DNA from: Anaerosolibacter sp.
GTDB lineage: Bacteria; Bacillota; Clostridia; Peptostreptococcales; Thermotaleaceae
Direction: 5' to 3'
NCBI RefSeq assembly: GCF_029240175.1
Contig: NZ_JARBTM010000002.1
Coordinates: forward strand, 124,001 to 188,000
DNA: 64,000 nt
The notes beneath the pieces were generated by a model that ran no database searches, was not told where the DNA came from, and worked only from the letters and a program-made list of their open reading frames with translations. Position numbers and translations under genes: made by a program. This document shows, one piece after another, positions 16,411 through 61,626 of the stretch (position 1 is its first letter; each line of letters opens with the position of its first letter).

Positions 16411-16530
16411 AAAAAACAAGGGGTGCAGGGGAAGGATTCCCATGCCGCAGTCAGAGGGGTGCTCAAGCTGCTTTGCAGCTGTCGAAGGGGAACTAGGTTC
16501 CCCTAGCGAAGCACACGGAGTGTGCTTTTT
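16411..16530. other. GC-rich block of hairpins upstream of recJ
   Basis: Unlike its AT-rich surroundings, this 120-bp gap sequence contains three consecutive perfect hairpins. They are AGCTGC-TTT-GCAGCT (16466-16480), AGGGGAAC-TAG-GTTCCCCT (16486-16504) and AAGCACAC-GGA-GTGTGCTT (16509-16527), the last followed by TTTTT. The last hairpin is terminator-like. The block may be a mobile-element remnant or a structured RNA; no known family is recognised. Confidence 0.5.
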
Positions 16531-51043: not shown

Positions 51044-51057
51044 ATGAGGTGGAAAAC

Positions 51058-52389
51058 ATGGATAAGCAGCTAATTAATTTCATTCGTGAAGCAGGAATTG
51101 TGGGTGCAGGGGGCGCAGGATTTCCCACCCATGTGAAGGTAAATGGAAAAGCTGAATATATCGTAGTAAATGGGGCTGAATGTGAGCCCCTGCTGCGAGT
51201 AGACCAGCAATTGATGACCTTTAAAGCAGCTGAGGTTCTAGAAGGATTAAAAGCGATTGTAAAGGAAACAGGGGCCCAGAAAGGAATCATCGCTTTAAAG
51301 AAGAAATACAAATTGGCCATCGAGGCTTTAGGAAGAGAGATTCATCCAGGGGATCCCATCGAGATTTTTGAACTGGGGGACTTTTATCCGGCAGGGGATG
51401 AACAAATCACAGTATATGAAGTATTGAAACGTATTGTGCCTGAAGGCGGTATTCCTCTCCAGGTAGGCGTGATTGTTACCAATGTGGAAACCTTGTTAAA
51501 TGTCAGCAATGCCATGAAGGGAATACCTGTAACCCATAAGTACCTAACCGTTACTGGGGCAGTAAGAAAACCTGTTACAGTGAAAGTCCCTGTTGGCATA
51601 AGTATTCGAGAAGTGATCGCATTGGCTGGCGGGGCAACGGTGGATCGATTTAAGGTGATTGATGGGGGCCCTATGATGGGGAAAATTGTGGAGAATATCG
51701 ACAAACCCATTACCAAAACATCAAAGGGGATTATCGTGCTGCCAGAGGAACATTCATTGATTCAGGGCAAGGTAAGGTCTATAGAAATCATGCTCAGACA
51801 AGCAAGAACAGCCTGCTGTCACTGCTCTCTATGTACTGAAGTCTGTCCAAGAAACTTGCTTGGGCACAAGCTTCATCCGGATAAACTGATGAGAATCGCC
51901 AGCTACAATAGTACTTGCGAAAACGATGTATCCGTTACGGAAGCTTTTCTATGCTGTGAATGCGGGCTATGTGAGACTGCATGTATCATGAACCTTCAAC
52001 CTTGGAAATTAAATCAGTTTTTAAAGGGGAAATTAAGCAGTGCAGGCATTAAGAATCCTAACAACAGGCAGCCTGTGAGAACCAACGAGTTTAGAGACTA
52101 TCGAAAGTTTCCAGTGAAAAAGCTTGTTGCACGATTGGGCCTTGACTTTTATAACGTTGATGCACCACTGGTGGAAAGCGTAAACCATGAGTTCCTATGT
52201 GTTGTGTTAGATAGAAAGCAGCATATTGGGGTTAAGACAGAGCCTTTGGTGCAAGCAGGAGATGTTGTGGCATTGGGGCAGGCTGTTGCAGATGTAAAAG
52301 AGGGTCAATTGGGGGCAAAGATTCATGCCAGCATTGATGGCATCGTACAAAGGATCGATGAAAATGTGATAGAAATTTGTAAACGATAA
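51058..52389 (+). CDS. pduS: PduS, RnfC-like corrinoid reductase
   Basis: This 443-residue protein has an NADH/FMN-binding RnfC-like core (GIVGAGGAGFPTHVKVNGKA, VVNGAECEPLLRVDQQL, VTNVETLLNVSNAM, VIDGGPMMG) and two [4Fe-4S] motifs (CCHCSLCTEVCPRN, CCECGLCETACIMN). It reduces cob(II)alamin for PduO and can bind the shell protein PduT. A C-terminal biotinyl-like region follows. ATG at 51058 follows GAGGTGG. Confidence 0.94.
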   Translation: MDKQLINFIREAGIVGAGGAGFPTHVKVNGKAEYIVVNGAECEPLLRVDQQLMTFKAAEVLEGLKAIVKETGAQKGIIALKKKYKLAIEALGREIHPGDPIEIFELGDFYPAGDEQITVYEVLKRIVPEGGIPLQVGVIVTNVETLLNVSNAMKGIPVTHKYLTVTGAVRKPVTVKVPVGISIREVIALAGGATVDRFKVIDGGPMMGKIVENIDKPITKTSKGIIVLPEEHSLIQGKVRSIEIMLRQARTACCHCSLCTEVCPRNLLGHKLHPDKLMRIASYNSTCENDVSVTEAFLCCECGLCETACIMNLQPWKLNQFLKGKLSSAGIKNPNNRQPVRTNEFRDYRKFPVKKLVARLGLDFYNVDAPLVESVNHEFLCVVLDRKQHIGVKTEPLVQAGDVVALGQAVADVKEGQLGAKIHASIDGIVQRIDENVIEICKR

Positions 52390-52401
52390 GGGGGAAAAAG
52401 T

Positions 52402-53262
52402 ATGTTTAGCATGGAATTAATTTTAGCAGCTTTTGGCGGTGGTGTTTTTGGTGCTTTAATTGGGGCATTACCAGCATTTATATTCACTGGATTTGTGGGA
52501 TTGATCGGTGTTGCAGTGCTTGCATCCGGTGGTGCTGGAACAATTTTAGGCGATGTGGTTTTTGGAACGTTATTGGGACCTCATATTGCCTTTGCAGGAG
52601 GCGTAGCAGCGGCAGCCTATGCAGCCAATAAGAAGAATTATTTAGCAAGCGGCGGCGATATTTTGACGCCTCTAAAGAAAACCAATGATGTAAGTGTTAT
52701 TTTGGTAGGCGGTATTTTTGGAATTTTAGGATATATCATTAATGGTTTCTATGCTTCTATGGCATTGCCTACAGACACAGTTGCAATGACAGTGTTTACA
52801 TCAGGTATTATTGCACGATTTGCCTTCGGTCAAACGGGATTATTTGGCAAGTACAGCGCTCAAAGTGAAGTTGCTGCTACCACAGAATTAGGAAAAAGAA
52901 GCTTTGTGCCTGATTCCAAATCATTTGCTTTTATTGCGTTGTATTCCTTTGGCTTAGGTTTAGTGATTTCATATCTTGTGGATCTTACACAAATCAATGT
53001 TCTTGGTTTCTGTATCAGTGCAGCCCTTTTAATCTTTGCACAAATGGGATTTGACATGCCAGCAACCCATCACATTACTTTGATTGCAGGTTATGCTGCC
53101 ATAGCTACAGGAAACATCTTTATCGGAGCTATTTTCGCGGTGATTTCTGGTATCTTATGTGAAGTAGCGGCATTGACCTTTAACAGCTATTCAGATACCC
53201 ATATCGACCCACCTGCAACGGCTATATTTATTCTTAGCTTTATTATTTTCATATTTATCTGA
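52402..53262 (+). CDS. Polytopic membrane protein in the pdu operon (unfamiliar family)
   Basis: This 286-residue, very hydrophobic protein has about 8-9 helices. It starts MELILAAFGGGVFGALIGAL and has many small-residue runs (AVLASGGAGTILGDVVFGTL, FAGGVAAAAYAANKK, FDMPATHHITLIAGYAAIAT). It is not a PduF-type (MIP) facilitator. I do not recognise its family. Position between pduS and pduT suggests a transporter for the diol, cobalamin or an end product (inference). AGGGGG lies upstream. Its last codons and stop (TTT ATC TGA) belong to the structured repeat that begins at 53254. Confidence 0.75.
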   Translation: MFSMELILAAFGGGVFGALIGALPAFIFTGFVGLIGVAVLASGGAGTILGDVVFGTLLGPHIAFAGGVAAAAYAANKKNYLASGGDILTPLKKTNDVSVILVGGIFGILGYIINGFYASMALPTDTVAMTVFTSGIIARFAFGQTGLFGKYSAQSEVAATTELGKRSFVPDSKSFAFIALYSFGLGLVISYLVDLTQINVLGFCISAALLIFAQMGFDMPATHHITLIAGYAAIATGNIFIGAIFAVISGILCEVAALTFNSYSDTHIDPPATAIFILSFIIFIFI

Positions 53263-53400
53263 TGACTAACAGCTCTAAGATCCCCACTTACATAAGTGGG
53301 GATGAGAGCTGTAAAGTCCCTAGATAACACGACTTGGCGTTCAGGTGGAGTTACCTGTGCCCGCGGGTGCAAACTCCATCTGAACTGAGTCTTAGTTAAT
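53254..53400 (+). repeat. Structured duplicated element, copy A (inside pdu operon)
   Basis: Copy A shares with copy B (58381-58565) the order TTTATC(C/T)GATG(G/A)CTAAC, CTCTAAGA, a hairpin, GATAACACGACTTGGCGTTC, AGGTGGAGTTAC, AACTCCATCTGAA and GAGTCTTAGTT. Helices: AACAGCTCT/AGAGCTGT; TCCCCACTT/AAGTGGGGA; GTTCAGGTGGAGTT/AACTCCATCTGAAC with an extra CCCGCGGG loop. Base pairs change in a compensatory way between copies, so it acts or acted as RNA or folded single-strand DNA. Confidence 0.8.
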
Positions 53401-53433
53401 GTAAATCTTTAGATGATGAGAGAGGCGATGTCC

Positions 53434-53982
53434 ATGAAAAAGTCAATCGGGCTAGTAGAATTTAAAAGTATTGCAAAGGGAATAGAAGCAACGGATGCAA
53501 TGTTAAAAGCTGCCCACGTTGAACTGATCCTTTCTACACCAATATGTCCTGGAAAGTACGTTACATTAATCAGTGGTGATGTGGGTGCCGTAAAAAATGC
53601 TGTGGAAGTCGGAAAACAAACGGGAGACATATTTACCATCGAAAGCTATGTAATTCCCAATGTAAGTCCATCGATCTTTCCTGCTTTGACAGCCACCATG
53701 GATGTGAGCAAAGTTACCTCATTAGGTATTATAGAAACCATATCAGCCATTACCTCCATCGTAGCAGGAGATGTGGCAGTAAAAGCAGCCAATGTCCAGC
53801 TGTTGGAGATTCGGTTGGCCAGGGGATTGGGTGGAAAAGGATTTGTACTGATCTCAGGTGAGGTAGCAGCTGTGAAACAAGCTATTAAGGCCTGTGAAAA
53901 CAACCTGGAGGATACTGGCGGCATTATCAGCGCAGTGGCCATTGCTTCACCGAGCCAAGAACTTGTATCAAAGCTATTATAG
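53434..53982 (+). CDS. pduT: BMC-T shell protein PduT
   Basis: This 182-residue protein has two BMC domains (SIGLVEFKSIAKGIEATDAM and SLGIIETISAITSIVAGDVA). TPICPGKYVTLISGD carries the cysteine that, in PduT trimers, holds a central [4Fe-4S] cluster in the pore. It likely passes electrons between cytosol and lumen together with PduS. ATG at 53434 is 9 bases after GAGAGG; ATG at 53428 is possible. It is separated from pduS by the membrane gene and repeat copy A. Confidence 0.93.
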   Translation: MKKSIGLVEFKSIAKGIEATDAMLKAAHVELILSTPICPGKYVTLISGDVGAVKNAVEVGKQTGDIFTIESYVIPNVSPSIFPALTATMDVSKVTSLGIIETISAITSIVAGDVAVKAANVQLLEIRLARGLGGKGFVLISGEVAAVKQAIKACENNLEDTGGIISAVAIASPSQELVSKLL

Positions 53983-54028
53983 GATGTTTTGTCATCAGCC
54001 TTAGGGAACTATTAGTTCTCTGTGAAGA

Positions 54029-54075
54029 ACAAAAGCATTTCCTTAGAATATATAGCAGGAAATGCTTTTGTTTTT
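54029..54075 (+). terminator. Terminator between pduT and pduQ
   Basis: ACAAAAGCATTTCCT with AGGAAATGCTTTTGT (54029-54071), then TTTTGG. It probably ends the main pdu message or lowers pduQ expression. Confidence 0.85.
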
Positions 54076-54122
54076 GGATAAATTAAGGCTCAAATTTTTT
54101 AAAAGGTTGGAGGGATTATGAA

Positions 54123-55295
54123 ATGAAAAGGTTTTTAGTAAGACCAGAAATATATCATGGAAGCAATGCGCTAAGCTACCTTGAGGGAATCGAGGGAAAG
54201 CGAGCCTTTATTGTAACGGATCCCTTCATGGTAAAGCTTGGCATAGTGACGAAGGTTACGGATATTTTAGAGAAGAAGCACATCCATTATGACATTTTTG
54301 ATGAGGTGGAACCTGACCCATCTCTCGAGACAGTGAAAAAAGGTTTAAATCAAATTATCTATACAAAGCCAGACCTGTTGATTGCCATTGGTGGAGGGTC
54401 ATCCATTGATGCAGCCAAGGCCATCATGTGCTTCTGTATCCACCTAAAGGAGAAATTTGTTGATACCCATAGTATCAAGAAGCCATGGTTTGTGGCCATT
54501 CCAACGACCAGTGGTACAGGGTCTGAGGTGACTTCTTATTCAGTGGTTACAGACAAGGTCAACAATATAAAAATACCTCTGAATGAAGCCCTGATGATTC
54601 CAGATGTGGCTATTTTAGACGAGGAACTGACAAAGACGGTGCCGCCTGGGGTGACTGGTGACACAGGAATGGATGTGCTAACCCATGCTTTGGAGGCCTA
54701 TGTATCGGTTCAAGCCTGTGCCTATACGGATATTTATGCTGAAAAAGCCATTAAGAGCGTTTTCGGATATCTGTTGAGGGCTTTCAAAGATGGAAACGAC
54801 ATGGAGGCAAGGGCAAAGCTTCATAATGGATCGTGTATGGCAGGGATTGCATTTACCAATGCAACATTAGGGATCAACCATAGCCTTGCCCATGCCTTCG
54901 GTGCAAAATTTAAGCTTTCCCATGGAAGAAGTAATGCTATTTTCTTACCGTATGTAATAAACTTCAACGCAGGGCTTGTAAATGGAGTTGTGAAGAATTT
55001 GGCAGTTGCAGAAAGGTATGCATCCATTGCAAAAATATTGAACTTCCCTGCTGCAACAGCTTCAGAGGGGACAAGAAGTCTCATAGAAGGAATAAAGGTG
55101 CTGAATGCTGTCCTAGGGATTCCTGCAGCCATAAAGGATATGAATATCTCAAAGGATGAATTTGAAGGGTGTATACCTGAAATGATAGAAGGTGTTCTAC
55201 AAGATATATGTACGGGGGGGAATCCAATTCATGTGTCGGAAAAAGATATTGACGGATTATTCCGAGAAGCTTTTAAAGGCCTAGATAGGCTATAA
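54123..55295 (+). CDS. pduQ: Iron-containing 1-propanol dehydrogenase
   Basis: This 390-residue type III alcohol dehydrogenase reduces propionaldehyde to 1-propanol and regenerates NAD+. NAD motif AIGGGSSIDAAKAI, PTTSGTGSEVTSYSVV, metal ligands in DTGMDVLTHALEAYVS and GINHSLAHAFGAKFKLSHGR. It is preceded by a terminator, so it may have its own promoter. GGAGG lies 9 bases before the ATG. Confidence 0.95.
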   Translation: MKRFLVRPEIYHGSNALSYLEGIEGKRAFIVTDPFMVKLGIVTKVTDILEKKHIHYDIFDEVEPDPSLETVKKGLNQIIYTKPDLLIAIGGGSSIDAAKAIMCFCIHLKEKFVDTHSIKKPWFVAIPTTSGTGSEVTSYSVVTDKVNNIKIPLNEALMIPDVAILDEELTKTVPPGVTGDTGMDVLTHALEAYVSVQACAYTDIYAEKAIKSVFGYLLRAFKDGNDMEARAKLHNGSCMAGIAFTNATLGINHSLAHAFGAKFKLSHGRSNAIFLPYVINFNAGLVNGVVKNLAVAERYASIAKILNFPAATASEGTRSLIEGIKVLNAVLGIPAAIKDMNISKDEFEGCIPEMIEGVLQDICTGGNPIHVSEKDIDGLFREAFKGLDRL

Positions 55296-57632: not shown

Positions 57633-58316
57633 TCAATATTTGCCTACATATTCCCATCCTGTGGGTATGCCTGGCTCGCCCGGCGTCCAGCCCGATGGCG
57701 CGCCCATACCTGTTCTTTCCGTATATTGCAGTCCTGCTAATATGCGTAAAATCTCATCAATATTTCTTCCTACAGGCTGTGGGTTTACAGAGAAGGCTTG
57801 AATTTTTCCTTCAGGATCAATAATAAAGGTGGCGCGATAGGCATAGCCGCCAGATTCATCGAGAATGCCATAGGTCTTTGATACCTCATGGGTACGATCA
57901 GAAAGCATTGGGAAATTGATTTTTTTCCCTGAGGGAGAGATCTCCATAAACACCTTATGGGAAAAAATACTATCAGTACTTATGGCTAGTACCACGGTGT
58001 CTAGGGCTTCGAATTGACTTTTTCGGTCAGCAACTGCTGCCAGTTCTGTAGGTCAGACATAGGTGAAATCGGAACCATAGAAAAAGAGAACCACCCATTT
58101 CCCACGATAATCTGAGAGGCTGACATCTGTGGGTTCCCCCTCAATGATGGCCTCTACTGTGAAGTCCGGGGCTTCATCTTCCAAATCAAAAAAGTCATAG
58201 AAACTTTTTTCCTGTCCTTGGCCAGGAGAGGAGGGATTCGATCTATAATAAGATATTTCGCTGCCGTACAAGGTGCGCCAATAGGGATTTACATAAGGAT
58301 ACTCAGGAAAGTGCAT
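57633..58316 (-). CDS. prxU: Selenocysteine-containing peroxiredoxin (in-frame TGA)
   Basis: This is a single peroxiredoxin reading frame of 227 residues, interrupted only by TGA at 58055-58053. The context is GSDFTYV-TGA-PTELAAV, exactly where peroxiredoxins carry the peroxidatic Cys (TYVCPTE). The rest of the fold continues in frame ([40 protein letters not shown]). Reading TGA as selenocysteine (U88) restores a full enzyme that reduces peroxides. The protein has no cysteine at all, and the usual resolving Cys position near the end is Ala (GAPSGWTPG). ATG at 58316 follows AAAGGAGG. An N-terminal extension of about 45 residues is unusual. Confidence 0.88.
58025..58041 (-). promoter_or_regulatory. 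SECIS-like hairpin after the TGA codon
   Basis: Eleven bases after the TGA the minus strand reads GGCAGCAGTTGCTGACC. Stem GG-CAGC/GCTG-A-CC with loop AGTT containing the G-U expected of bacterial SECIS loops. Confidence 0.7.
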
Positions 58317-58341
58317 AAGGAAGCCTCCTTTGGGTTTATTT

Positions 58342-58368
58342 ACTATATCATATTCCAAAGGAAGACAA
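58342..58368 (-). promoter_or_regulatory. Promoter of the peroxiredoxin gene
   Basis: On the minus strand TTGTCT (58368-58363), 15-bp spacer, and extended -10 TGA-TATAGT (58347-58342). Confidence 0.5.
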
Positions 58369-58380
58369 CTCGTTCGAGAT

Positions 58381-58565
58381 TTTATCCGATGGCTAACAAC
58401 TCTAAGACTCCCGCTTGCACGCTGTGTAAGCGATGATCAATAAATCAAAGATTTATGATCCCTGCTTATACGAGCGGGAGACAAGAGTTGTACAGCCCCT
58501 GGATAACACGACTTGGCGTTCAGGTGGAGTTACAAACTCCATCTGAATTGAGTCTTAGTTGATAT
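58381..58565 (+). repeat. Structured duplicated element, copy B
   Basis: Copy B matches copy A at 53254-53400. Helices AACAACTCT/AGAGTTGT and CTCCCGCT/AGCGGGAG replace A's AACAGCTCT/AGAGCTGT and CCCCACT/AGTGGGG by paired changes. It has an extra insert (58420-58467) in the first hairpin and a shorter loop in the GTTCAGGTGGAGTT stem. CTAAGACTC also pairs with GAGTCTTAG. It lies between the 30-residue gene and prxU. Confidence 0.8.
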
Positions 58566-58658: not shown

Positions 58659-58745
58659 AAGATATCCTCCCGTATAAAAGGTGAAAAATAATAACACATT
58701 ATTAGTATGATTGATAACCCTAGAATTATCCGAGGAGAGAAGTGT

Positions 58746-59468
58746 ATGACGGTCATTGCAGAAGTCTTTCTACAAACCATACTGGCATTTTTCACAATTC
58801 TATTTATTACAAGAATTCTAGGGCGGCAGCAGGTGGCCCAACTTACTCTTTTTGATTATATAAATGGGATTACCTTTGGTTCTATTGCTGCAACTTTGGC
58901 TACAGATTTGAATCAGAGGACATGGCATCATCTATTGGGACTCGTGCTTTTCGGCAGTTTGACTTTTATCATGCAGTATATCTGTCTAAAGCATAGAAGG
59001 GCATCGAAGATTATTCAGGGAGAGCCGGTTATCGTCATTCAGGATGGTAAAATTCTAGAAAAAAATCTTGCCAGATTCCACTATTCTGTGGATGATCTCA
59101 CCCATTTGCTTCGGAAAAAGGACATATTCGATGTCAACAGCGTTAAGTTTGGTATACTGGAAACCACTGGAGAGATCAGTGTTTTAAAGATGGCAGGGAA
59201 AGAATTTGTTCGAGCAGAAGATATAAATTTACAGACCAAGCAGGAAGATATGCCTACAGAAGTGATCGTTACAGGCAGTATTATCTATGAAAACCTTCAA
59301 AAAAGGGGATTAACCGTTAAATGGCTGGTGAGCCAGTTAAAAATGATGAACGTAGTGAATCTGAAAGACGTTTTCTATGCTACCATTGATGGAGACAATC
59401 ATCTTTTTATTGATAGAGAAGAAGATCATTTAAAAAGAGACGATAATATTACAGAAGAACAAAATTGA
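58746..59468 (+). CDS. YetF/DUF421 family membrane protein
   Basis: This 240-residue product has three N-terminal helices (VFLQTILAFFTILFITRILG; FDYINGITFGSIAATLATDL) and a conserved cytoplasmic DUF421 domain with GEPVIVIQDGKILEKNLARF, HYSVDDLTHLLRKKDIFDVN, and VKFGILETTGEISVLK. In Bacillus, YetF-type proteins are found in the spore or cell membrane. ATG at 58746 follows GGAGAG. A paralog lies at 61652-62356, on the other side of two asparaginase-type genes. Confidence 0.9.
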   Translation: MTVIAEVFLQTILAFFTILFITRILGRQQVAQLTLFDYINGITFGSIAATLATDLNQRTWHHLLGLVLFGSLTFIMQYICLKHRRASKIIQGEPVIVIQDGKILEKNLARFHYSVDDLTHLLRKKDIFDVNSVKFGILETTGEISVLKMAGKEFVRAEDINLQTKQEDMPTEVIVTGSIIYENLQKRGLTVKWLVSQLKMMNVVNLKDVFYATIDGDNHLFIDREEDHLKRDDNITEEQN

Positions 59469-59518: not shown

Positions 59519-60571
59519 CTATAAAAGCTCGGTGACTTTTTTACCCATAAGATAGGGATTACGCCTAGGTTGATGAAGGTCAAACACGGGAATTATTTCA
59601 CCAATCACTTCATTCAAGTTATTCTTTAAGAGAGGACGATGCCATTGATTCAGATTCGACAGCGCTGTGCCGTTTAGCGCGCCTAAGGTCTTTAAGATCT
59701 CGATTACAACAGGATAAATAGCTCGTTCATTGCCATCTACAATCTTTACGCAAACACCTAAATTGTTTTCTTGAATGCCTAGGCAGTAAACCGCTTCTGA
59801 ACCTACTTTGCCAATAATCTTTCCGCCAGCAAACTGCATGAGTTCTGTACAAAACTCACTGTCACCACTGACCATTTCAGGAAATTGGGACATGGCATCC
59901 ACCACGGCTTTACAAGCAGCATGATATATATGTTTACGATCTTTGCCCCATTGAATAAGTCTAGCATAGGATAATGCTATTTTTTTCAGTGAAAGAAGGT
60001 AAATAGGGATACCGCAGCCATCCTTGCCCATGGGGATAGAATCCACTGCCTCATCGGTGAAATAGGCAATGGTCTCCAAAATTTCTTTCTGTACAGGATG
60101 AGAAAAATCTTCATAAGCATCAATGGAATAACCTCTATATTTGGCTAGTGCCAATATGCCAGCATGCTTTCCAGAGCAGCTGCAGTGGAGAACGGTGGGC
60201 ATTAAGGCCTCCTTCAATAATCTCTGATGCTCCGCTTCATTATATGGAAACATAATACCGCAGTGGAGATGCTCAGGTTCTAAGTGAAGTCGATTTAATA
60301 TATCGACAGCAGCTTGCTGGTGAAATTTTTGGCCGCTGTGGGACGCGCAAACCAAAGCAATATCTTGAGAGGAGAAATCGAAGGCCTTAGCAGCACCAGA
60401 GTGAAGCAGGGGGATTGCTTGAATGGGTTTTGCTGAGGATCGAAAATAAATTTCTGTATCAGGATTTCCTAGGTTATACAGTACTTTTCCTGAAGCATCT
60501 ACGATGGTGATATATCCATAATGGATACTTTCGATATAATCATTCCTTGTCACTACTGCCAATGGTTCCAT
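59519..60571 (-). CDS. L-asparaginase II-type protein (PF06089-like), copy 2
   Basis: This 350-residue product has EPLAVVTRNDYIESIHYGYI, RSSAKPIQAIPLLHSGAAKA, CASHSGQKFHQQAA and CSCSGKHAGILALAKYRG, the motifs of the asparaginase II (AnsA-like, thermophilic/rhizobial type) family. Such enzymes hydrolyse L-asparagine to aspartate. The start overlaps the upstream paralog by 19 bases; AAGGAGAG precedes the ATG. A key cluster Ser-Ala-Lys and the SGKHAG motif are kept. Confidence 0.9.
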   Translation of the reverse strand: MEPLAVVTRNDYIESIHYGYITIVDASGKVLYNLGNPDTEIYFRSSAKPIQAIPLLHSGAAKAFDFSSQDIALVCASHSGQKFHQQAAVDILNRLHLEPEHLHCGIMFPYNEAEHQRLLKEALMPTVLHCSCSGKHAGILALAKYRGYSIDAYEDFSHPVQKEILETIAYFTDEAVDSIPMGKDGCGIPIYLLSLKKIALSYARLIQWGKDRKHIYHAACKAVVDAMSQFPEMVSGDSEFCTELMQFAGGKIIGKVGSEAVYCLGIQENNLGVCVKIVDGNERAIYPVVIEILKTLGALNGTALSNLNQWHRPLLKNNLNEVIGEIIPVFDLHQPRRNPYLMGKKVTELL

Positions 60572-61626
60572 ATATACTCTCCTTCATATAAAAATTCTTC
60601 TCCAATCGCTATCTTTGGCAGCTGTCTGCCATGTAGATCGAAGACTGGAAGGGTGTAACCCACAATTTTGCCTTTATGATCTTTTACTGGGGGATAGGCC
60701 CAGGGACTTAAACCTTCAGGTAGTTCACAGTTGAGAATGCCCAATTGTCTCAGTAAGTGAACCGCTATAGGATAGACAGCCCTTTCATTACCATCATCAA
60801 CTTTGATGAGGATGCCTAAACCCATTTCGGGTACGGCAATACAGTAAATACCTTCACCCCCCACTTTTCCTATAACCTTACCCTTTGTGTGAAGCACCAG
60901 CTCAGTACAAAACTCATGATCACCGCTGATCATAACAGGGTAGGAGAGCATGGCAGTTTTGATTTGCTCCAAGGCGTCAGCGTAGGCATGGGGAAGATTA
61001 GACCCAGCAGCCAGCTGAGCATATAGGAAGGCGCCTTGTTCCATGGAAAGCATGAAATTTGGTACGCCACAGCCATCGGTCCCAAGGATGATCTGATGGA
61101 TCTCAATAGATAACAATTCAGCCACTACCTTTAGAATGAGCTGCTGAACAGGATGGGAAACATCTGTATAATTTGATATGGGAAAATTATAATATTTGCA
61201 GAGGGTCAACATTCCTGCATGTTTTCCCGAACAGCAGTTATAAAGGGGTGTAGGCTTCTCTTTTCTTTGTATTAGTAAAGCATTCATCTCTTCATTATAG
61301 GGATTACATGCACCACATGCTAAGGCATCCTCCGTTAATCCAATCTTTCTTAGAATTGATCCTACAGTGCGACGGTGAATATCTTCACCGCTGTGGGAAG
61401 AACAAATGATAGCAAGCTCTTCCATGGAAAGATTAAACTTTTCCATGGCTCTAGATGCTACAAGGGCTACAGCTTGAAATGGCTTTGCAGAGGAGCGCAT
61501 ATAAACCTTTCCCGAAGGATCTCCAATATTGGATACAATACGGCCAGATGCATCAGAAATACATATCTTTCCCCTGTGGATACTCTCAATACGTTGAGAT
61601 CGCGTTAATAGCACTAAAGAATCCAT
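60553..61626 (-). CDS. L-asparaginase II-type protein, copy 1
   Basis: This 357-residue paralog of the next gene on the minus strand has SLVLLTRSQRIESIHRGKIC, YMRSSAKPFQAVALVASRAM, CSSHSGEDIHRRT and YNCCSGKHAGMLTLCKYY. The same conserved residues suggest activity. AAGAGGTG precedes the ATG. The two genes overlap, so they are cotranscribed and perhaps form a heteromer (inference). Confidence 0.9.
   Translation of the reverse strand: MDSLVLLTRSQRIESIHRGKICISDASGRIVSNIGDPSGKVYMRSSAKPFQAVALVASRAMEKFNLSMEELAIICSSHSGEDIHRRTVGSILRKIGLTEDALACGACNPYNEEMNALLIQRKEKPTPLYNCCSGKHAGMLTLCKYYNFPISNYTDVSHPVQQLILKVVAELLSIEIHQIILGTDGCGVPNFMLSMEQGAFLYAQLAAGSNLPHAYADALEQIKTAMLSYPVMISGDHEFCTELVLHTKGKVIGKVGGEGIYCIAVPEMGLGILIKVDDGNERAVYPIAVHLLRQLGILNCELPEGLSPWAYPPVKDHKGKIVGYTLPVFDLHGRQLPKIAIGEEFLYEGEYIWNHWQ

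Follow-up and report, generated by a model that had tools for sequence, protein, structure and literature searches.

The gene at the centre of this study almost certainly encodes a selenoprotein peroxiredoxin in which an in-frame UGA stands for selenocysteine (Sec) at the peroxidatic position, and its sequence places it in an unnamed Bacillota clade, separate from the described PrxU. It lies in the window, the whole 64,000-nucleotide stretch of Anaerosolibacter sp. DNA that was analysed, and several sequence-based findings point to late sporulation as the time at which the enzyme is made. Our favored reading, held with moderate confidence, is that it acts as a late-sporulation, spore-associated 1-Sec peroxidase that is reduced by an external thiol. 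The gene and the relevant parts of its product are as follows:

57633..58316, minus strand: Sec peroxiredoxin gene, 227 codons plus terminal TGA, with its ATG at 58316
57635-57633, minus strand: terminal TGA of this gene
58053..58055, minus strand: in-frame UGA, Sec88 at the peroxidatic position (by alignment)
58074..58076, minus strand: codon of Gly81, at the Pro position of PxxxTxxC (by row counts)
57699..57701, minus strand: codon of Ala206, in the column of the C-terminal resolving Cys (by alignment and row counts)
58176..58316, minus strand: N-terminal tail, residues 1-47, rich in Tyr, Pro, and Asn (by composition), with residues 1-39 predicted to be disordered
58324..58330, minus strand: ribosome binding site AAGGAGG, read from the sequence

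The original prediction had placed the TGA at 58055-58053 in frame at the catalytic Cys position, with about 140 residues of peroxiredoxin sequence behind it and no Cys in a 227-residue product, and our analyses bear this out. With the UGA (codon 88) read as Sec, the protein has 227 residues without a single Cys, and 139 of these are C-terminal to Sec88. In an alignment of 26 rows, Sec88 aligns with the invariant peroxidatic Cys, and of the other catalytic residues Arg161 is fully and Thr85 almost fully conserved; the column of the C-terminal resolving Cys, the residue by which typical 2-Cys peroxiredoxins are recognized, holds Ala206, again as predicted. The PxxxTxxC signature is changed to GxxxTxxU, with the Thr kept, the Pro replaced by Gly, and the Cys by Sec. 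An AhpC-TSA domain was found with 133.7 bits (Pfam), and the score for 1-cysPrx_C (PF10417) was 19.9 bits, under the cut-off of 21.1. The protein also stays under the cut-offs of all 12 NCBIfam models that it matched, including the best-matching one, the PrxU model NF040737 (190.7 bits, cut-off 270), and the gene could therefore easily be annotated as two fragments. The AlphaFold2 model has a mean pLDDT of 80, with values below 50 for residues 1-39 and for residues 85-87 just before Sec88, and its fold matches 2-Cys peroxiredoxins, the best Foldseek match being 3ztl with a TM-score of 0.94 by target length. Despite the altered signature, the domain and the modeled fold thus assign the protein to the peroxiredoxin superfamily.

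The genome contains what is needed to decode UGA as Sec. It has selA with 631.5 bits, and tRNA-Sec (selC) scored 74.1 bits (gathering score 47). On contig C24, the selD, selA, and selB frames stand in a row with tRNA-Sec downstream, the frames that we take to be selB and selD being named from their ORF translations; the selD frame has an in-frame UGA of its own in the motif SSSGUAAK. The missing Sec genes or degraded homologs that the original prediction had named as grounds against it were thus not encountered, as the homologs keep both the UGA and the sequence downstream of it. In comparison with the Anaerosolibacter carboniphilus locus L010, whose peroxiredoxin is 81% identical to that of the window, the 139 codons behind the UGA have a dN/dS of 0.082, which indicates purifying selection. 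The UGA is followed by a hairpin:

58025..58041, minus strand: SECIS-type hairpin with loop AGUU (by pairing and by covariation at synonymous positions)

This hairpin (58041-58025) starts 11 nt downstream of the UGA, exactly as had been described, and is built from GGCAGC, the loop AGUU, and GCUGACC, in which one A is bulged. Its conservation was analyzed in 69 Sec rows of clades A-D, corresponding to 67 distinct 48-mers, with positions numbered from the U of UGA. The four inner stem pairs form in 68 of the 69 rows, and the two outer pairs are present in just 52% and 78%, so that the SECIS assignment holds for the inner stem and the loop while the outer pairs vary. Both partners of pair 18-27 are third codon positions, yet they form a standard pair in 67/67 distinct rows (A-U 52, G-C 8, G-U 4, U-A 3), and positions 21-24 combine as A..U in 48, G..C in 18, and G..U in one. 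None of 2000 shuffles reached the value of either of these two. The position pairs 15-30 and 18-45, which lie outside the drawn structure and are standard pairs in 75% and 70%, also beat all 2000 shuffles, showing that relatedness inflates such pairing tests and that the shuffles alone are not decisive. Among Cys homologs, the four pairs form in 1/52, and other residues are encoded there. The gene also ends in a TGA, which argues against a general readthrough of UGA. With a UGA at a redox-active Cys site and conserved sequence on both sides, the gene has the hallmarks of a selenoprotein gene, and the protein would contain selenium.

To place the protein in its family, we scanned species genomes and retained the best 80 of the 247 relatives detected; as Cys rows we used those closest to the query plus seven from the window's order. 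The first 33 loci among the best 80 of 247 (L010-L042), carried by Bacillota according to the record titles except for one labeled Lutibacter, all encode Sec and lack the resolving Cys, and the other 47 (L043-L089) have Cys at both the peroxidatic and the resolving place. Signatures were counted in 138 rows, comprising clade A (window type, 23), clade B (L113 type, 4), clade C (Bacillaceae type, 17), PrxU-type rows (35), Sec rows with resolving Cys (5), and Cys rows (54). Rows that repeated the same gene, sequence, or statistics had been dropped (L091 and L098 for the window, L093 for L113, L125 for L092, L099, L101, L158, L159, and L161 for L010, L011, L012, L014, and L019, L104 and L115 for L134 and L143), and the other peroxiredoxin types L094-L097, L111, L112, L119-L123, and L127 are outside this count. 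Clades A, B, and C together show Sec in 44/44, a resolving Cys in 0/44, and Gly at the position of the signature Pro in 44/44 rows, which makes GxxxTxxU the clade signature. The Pro is kept in 94/94 PrxU, Sec-plus-resolving-Cys, and Cys rows, and to our knowledge it is near-universal in peroxiredoxins. In a review, PxxxTxxU is described as highly conserved in Sec peroxiredoxins (PMC13188914). In a tree of 96 rows, from which the short L024, L025, and L030 were left out and into which a hand-picked 17 of the 47 Cys loci L043-L089 were taken, clades A, B, and C form one group of 36 rows, all with Sec and without resolving Cys (SH-aLRT 98); the window type has an SH-aLRT of 98, and PrxU forms a separate 30-row group (SH-aLRT 100). 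An NCBIfam scan of all 26 alignment members yielded no model particular to the clade.

The original prediction noted the missing C-terminal resolving Cys and regarded the long N-terminal extension and the loss of all cysteines as unusual; neither the missing resolving Cys nor the loss of all cysteines is special to this protein. The resolving Cys is absent from 79/79 Sec rows of clades A-C and PrxU, and the five Sec rows that retain it, all of which also have the Pro, show that Sec does not force its loss. Among 21 clade A rows (the 23 less two fragments), 10 lack Cys altogether, one of them being the window's, and so does L113 of the same genome. This genome encodes three Sec peroxiredoxins, namely the window gene, L113 (G000:C27:33411-33965), a Cys-free protein of 186 aa without a long tail and with the relatives L114, L169, and L170, and L092/L125 (G000:C4:51628-52107), which keeps the C-terminal resolving Cys (TPVUGTE ... 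ACPANW). The other 11 of the 21 clade A rows have one to five Cys each, 17 of these 24 Cys being in the tail, and at least one tail Cys is found in 10/21. In clade C, 14/17 rows have a Cys near the N-terminus, with PFCAQ or PYCAG in six rows. The tails of the 21 clade A rows contain 16% Tyr, 11% Asn, and 9% Pro, compared with 5%, 5%, and 6% in the core, whereas the N-terminal region of PrxU has 0% Tyr and 1.5% Asn (30 rows) and thus no Tyr/Asn tail. The start codons were picked by a ribosome-site score, and the tail ends are therefore estimates. Between the window and L010, the dN/dS of the tail is about 1.1 on 33 differences, with no detectable constraint; the tail thus need not be a targeting signal, and the value speaks against a constrained one.

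PrxU was reportedly described by Sohling et al. in 2001 from Eubacterium acidaminophilum. It shares with the window protein the peroxidatic Sec, the absence of the C-terminal resolving Cys (35/35), and the position and pairing of the SECIS (30 rows), but it keeps the signature Pro in 35/35, has a Cys 10 residues before Sec (LCFYPGDFTFVU), forms its own tree group, lacks the Tyr/Asn tail, and resides mostly in SpoIVA-negative genomes (46/54). AhpC and the typical 2-Cys Prx1-4 have the fold (3ztl) and the catalytic Thr and Arg in common with the window protein, which differs from them by Sec in place of Cys, the missing resolving Cys, and Gly in place of the signature Pro. Animal Sec glutathione peroxidases, which combine Sec with the loss of the resolving Cys and use an external thiol, belong to another family and are alike in mechanism only. 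For glutathione peroxidases, it is said that the switch to Sec made the resolving Cys dispensable and that this Cys was lost later (PMC8614756), and the same logic fits the window clade.

Neither the Pro-to-Gly change nor the link to sporulation was part of the original prediction. Of the 33 loci L010-L042, 24 entered a test of their genomes, 12 with a clade A locus and 12 with a clade C locus, and both selA and SpoIVA exceeded their cut-offs in 24/24. Our search of the window's order found 17 of 393 genomes, five of which had PrxU-like matches (166-170 bits) and were excluded from the window type; all 12 remaining carriers (at least 247 bits) have SpoIVA, which was detected overall in 158/393 genomes at E 1e-60 and in 156 over the cut-off. 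PrxU is a fair control, as both kinds should need the Sec machinery, and it was over the cut-off in 54/393 genomes, with SpoIVA in 8/54 and no SpoIVA match in 46/54. When the two genomes with both kinds were removed, SpoIVA was present in 10/10 window-type versus 6/52 PrxU genomes (Fisher p 7e-8, with kinship ignored). The clostridial branch therefore looks, from its sequences, linked to sporulation.

The region upstream of the gene contains a candidate promoter:

58346..58354, minus strand: sigma-K-like -10 element AATATGATA, 5/6 of the consensus CATANNNTA, same in L010
58372..58373, minus strand: sigma-K-like -35 element AC, 17 nt before the -10 element

The -10 consensus of sigma-K is CATANNNTA, and the arrangement AAC-17-AATATGATA upstream of the window gene, which is conserved in L010, has 7/8 bases of AC plus CATANNNTA at a spacing of 17. 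In C. difficile, according to PMC3789822, the -35 element is AC for sigma-K and ATA for sigma-E, and the -10 element is common to both. We scored AC-N15..18-CATANNNTA with a threshold of 7 of 8 bases, in 15 of 20 clade A rows and 12 of 17 clade C rows; the motif had been noticed before the enrichment test. At least 7/8 bases were found in 12/15 clade A upstream regions versus 16/115 ORFs of the same loci and 5/30 PrxU. Ten of the 12 clade A matches are 21-33 nt before the start codon, and matches outside this common place are those of L019 (72 nt), L163 (54 nt), and L100 (48 nt). Three of the 15 regions stay below the threshold, as do two (L160, L162) of the three rows added later, which score 6, 6, and 7. 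Shuffled clade A upstream regions reach 7/8 in 650/3000 cases, their natural AT content exceeds that of the background (76% versus 70%), and the -10 element often begins with A, not C. A full 8/8 match was found in each of the four Fictibacillus rows examined in clade C (versus 1/71 ORFs), and the remaining 8/12 rows have only 5 or 6 of 8. Over 18 rows, the enrichment had p-values of 1.6e-7 for sigma-K, 0.06 for sigma-A, 0.04 for sigma-E, and 0.2 for sigma-G, all of them too small because of shared ancestry. Based on these motifs, the window gene may be transcribed by sigma-K.

Upstream of this promoter, a 151-base imperfect palindrome (58395-58545) has a degenerate copy at 53276-53354. It is a dispersed repeat with 28 matches in its own genome, 10 of which, itself included, are near full length with 94-100% identity. 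Its strong hairpin at 58395-58525 (fold z -5.4) was rejected as a regulator of the gene, as it is part of this repeat and missing before the gene in L010, and Rfam had no match above a gathering score in it, the single overlap (SNORD5, 18.3 bits versus 55, E 4.7) being at chance level. Elsewhere in the window, Rfam matched a T-box leader (1677-1883, 132.9 bits) and the Clostridiales-2 sRNA (16411-16492, 78 bits), and the ORFs at 51049-55295, presumably RnfC/PduS-like, BMC-domain-like, and iron-type alcohol-dehydrogenase-like by their translations, suggest a bacterial microcompartment cluster.

A conserved operon was sought and rejected: when the ORFs of 37 loci were clustered, some of them with flanks cut by contig ends, no neighbor family occurred in more than 6/37 besides ORFs antisense to the peroxiredoxin gene. 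In the Fictibacillus locus L032, gerPA/PF, gerPB, and gerPC lie within about 3.5 kb of the gene; gerP-like ORFs are near five Fictibacillus loci only, with the families confirmed in L032 alone. The window gene has a divergent neighbor:

58707..59468, plus strand: DUF421 (YetF-like) membrane protein (Pfam PF04239, 119 bits), same arrangement in L010

A DUF421 gene is next door in the window and L010 only. Beyond it, at 59519-61626 on the minus strand, two adjacent and similar ORFs, which we take from their translations to be L-asparaginase-II-like, are located between two DUF421 genes. In B. subtilis, the inner membrane of the spore contains the DUF421 proteins YetF and YdfS, although some asporogenous Firmicutes have relatives too (PMC10126465).

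In the mechanism that we propose, the Sec machinery of the genome, together with the hairpin just downstream, would decode the UGA as Sec88. Sec88 would reduce a hydroperoxide and become a selenenic acid, and an external thiol, called for because the protein has no resolving Cys, would form and then cleave a selenenylsulfide. This 1-Sec mechanism, which the original prediction had already offered, is still the best mechanistic reading. Transcription of the gene would start from the sigma-K-type promoter in the mother cell, at a late stage of sporulation, and the tailed enzyme, whose location is probably the spore's outer layers, would protect these layers or the maturing spore from peroxide. 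We infer peroxidase activity, the external thiol, the spore location, and the role of the tail from the sequence. A precedent for a thiol peroxidase in spore layers is C. difficile CotE, described as a coat peroxiredoxin/chitinase of the sigma-K regulon (PMC3789822, PMC10681294); it resembles the proposed role by this description, but unlike the window protein it has two domains.

Other readings have to be weighed against this one. That the UGA is a true stop, leaving a recent pseudogene or two genes, has in our view practically no chance of being correct: the standard code does split the frame into two ORFs, but the UGA is kept in 44/44 clade rows, the dN/dS of 0.08 after it and the conservation of the downstream sequence speak for a continuous protein, and the SECIS pairing meets a complete Sec machinery. 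Less likely than our favored reading, but with an appreciable chance, is that the same Sec peroxiredoxin works in the cytosol of vegetative cells as an ordinary thioredoxin-dependent peroxidase, much as PrxU does, and that the correlation with sporulation does no more than mirror the phylogeny of the carriers. The intact peroxiredoxin fold and catalytic Thr and Arg would suit such an enzyme, as would the lack of conserved neighbors and the fact that the best NCBIfam match (190.7 bits) is PrxU, which NCBIfam describes as thioredoxin-dependent. However, the sigma-K-like enrichment is missing in PrxU (5/30) and in other ORFs (16/115), a SpoIVA match is missing in 46/54 PrxU carriers versus 0/12 window-type carriers, and PrxU has no Tyr/Asn-rich tail.

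The N-terminal Cys of the relatives (KYCDYF in several clostridial rows, PFCAQ in Bacillaceae rows) could also be an atypical resolving Cys within an oligomer that was lost in the window's lineage. The tail Cys in 10/21 clade A rows and the Cys near the N-terminus in 14/17 clade C rows would fit this idea, which we nevertheless consider unlikely, because 10/21 clade A rows have no Cys at all, so that it cannot be needed there, and because the tail is disordered in the AlphaFold2 model. Going beyond our favored late-sporulation 1-Sec peroxidase, we tentatively suggest, as something quite conceivable but short of probable, a sigma-K-controlled, Cys-free 1-Sec GxxxTxxU peroxiredoxin in the spore coat, which might serve as a peroxide shield or might drive a cross-linking of the Tyr-rich proteins of the coat that depends on peroxide; building a spore would then consume selenium.

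Sec peroxiredoxins as such are already known. Peroxiredoxins have long been listed as a selenoprotein family, and PMC1794560 names Alkaliphilus metalliredigenes with two Sec peroxiredoxins, a pair that may include the window type; two reviews list Sec peroxiredoxin as one TxxU family beside peroxiredoxin-like ones (PMC9312934, PMC13188914). Open-literature searches for selenocysteine or selenoprotein together with spore terms gave no spore selenoprotein in the titles and abstract beginnings of the matches listed, and two C. difficile spore papers among these matches had the word "selenoprotein" in the reference list only. Besides the use of Sec, both the signature Pro and the resolving Cys, two further features by which peroxiredoxins are recognized, are altered in the clade described here. 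It thus provides a second family, after the Sec glutathione peroxidases, in which the relation between the gain of Sec and the loss of the resolving Cys can be tested, and named strains are obtainable (Anaerosolibacter carboniphilus DSM 103526, Fictibacillus). If the sporulation link is true, this would be, as far as open-literature searches show, the first selenoprotein proposed for endospores.
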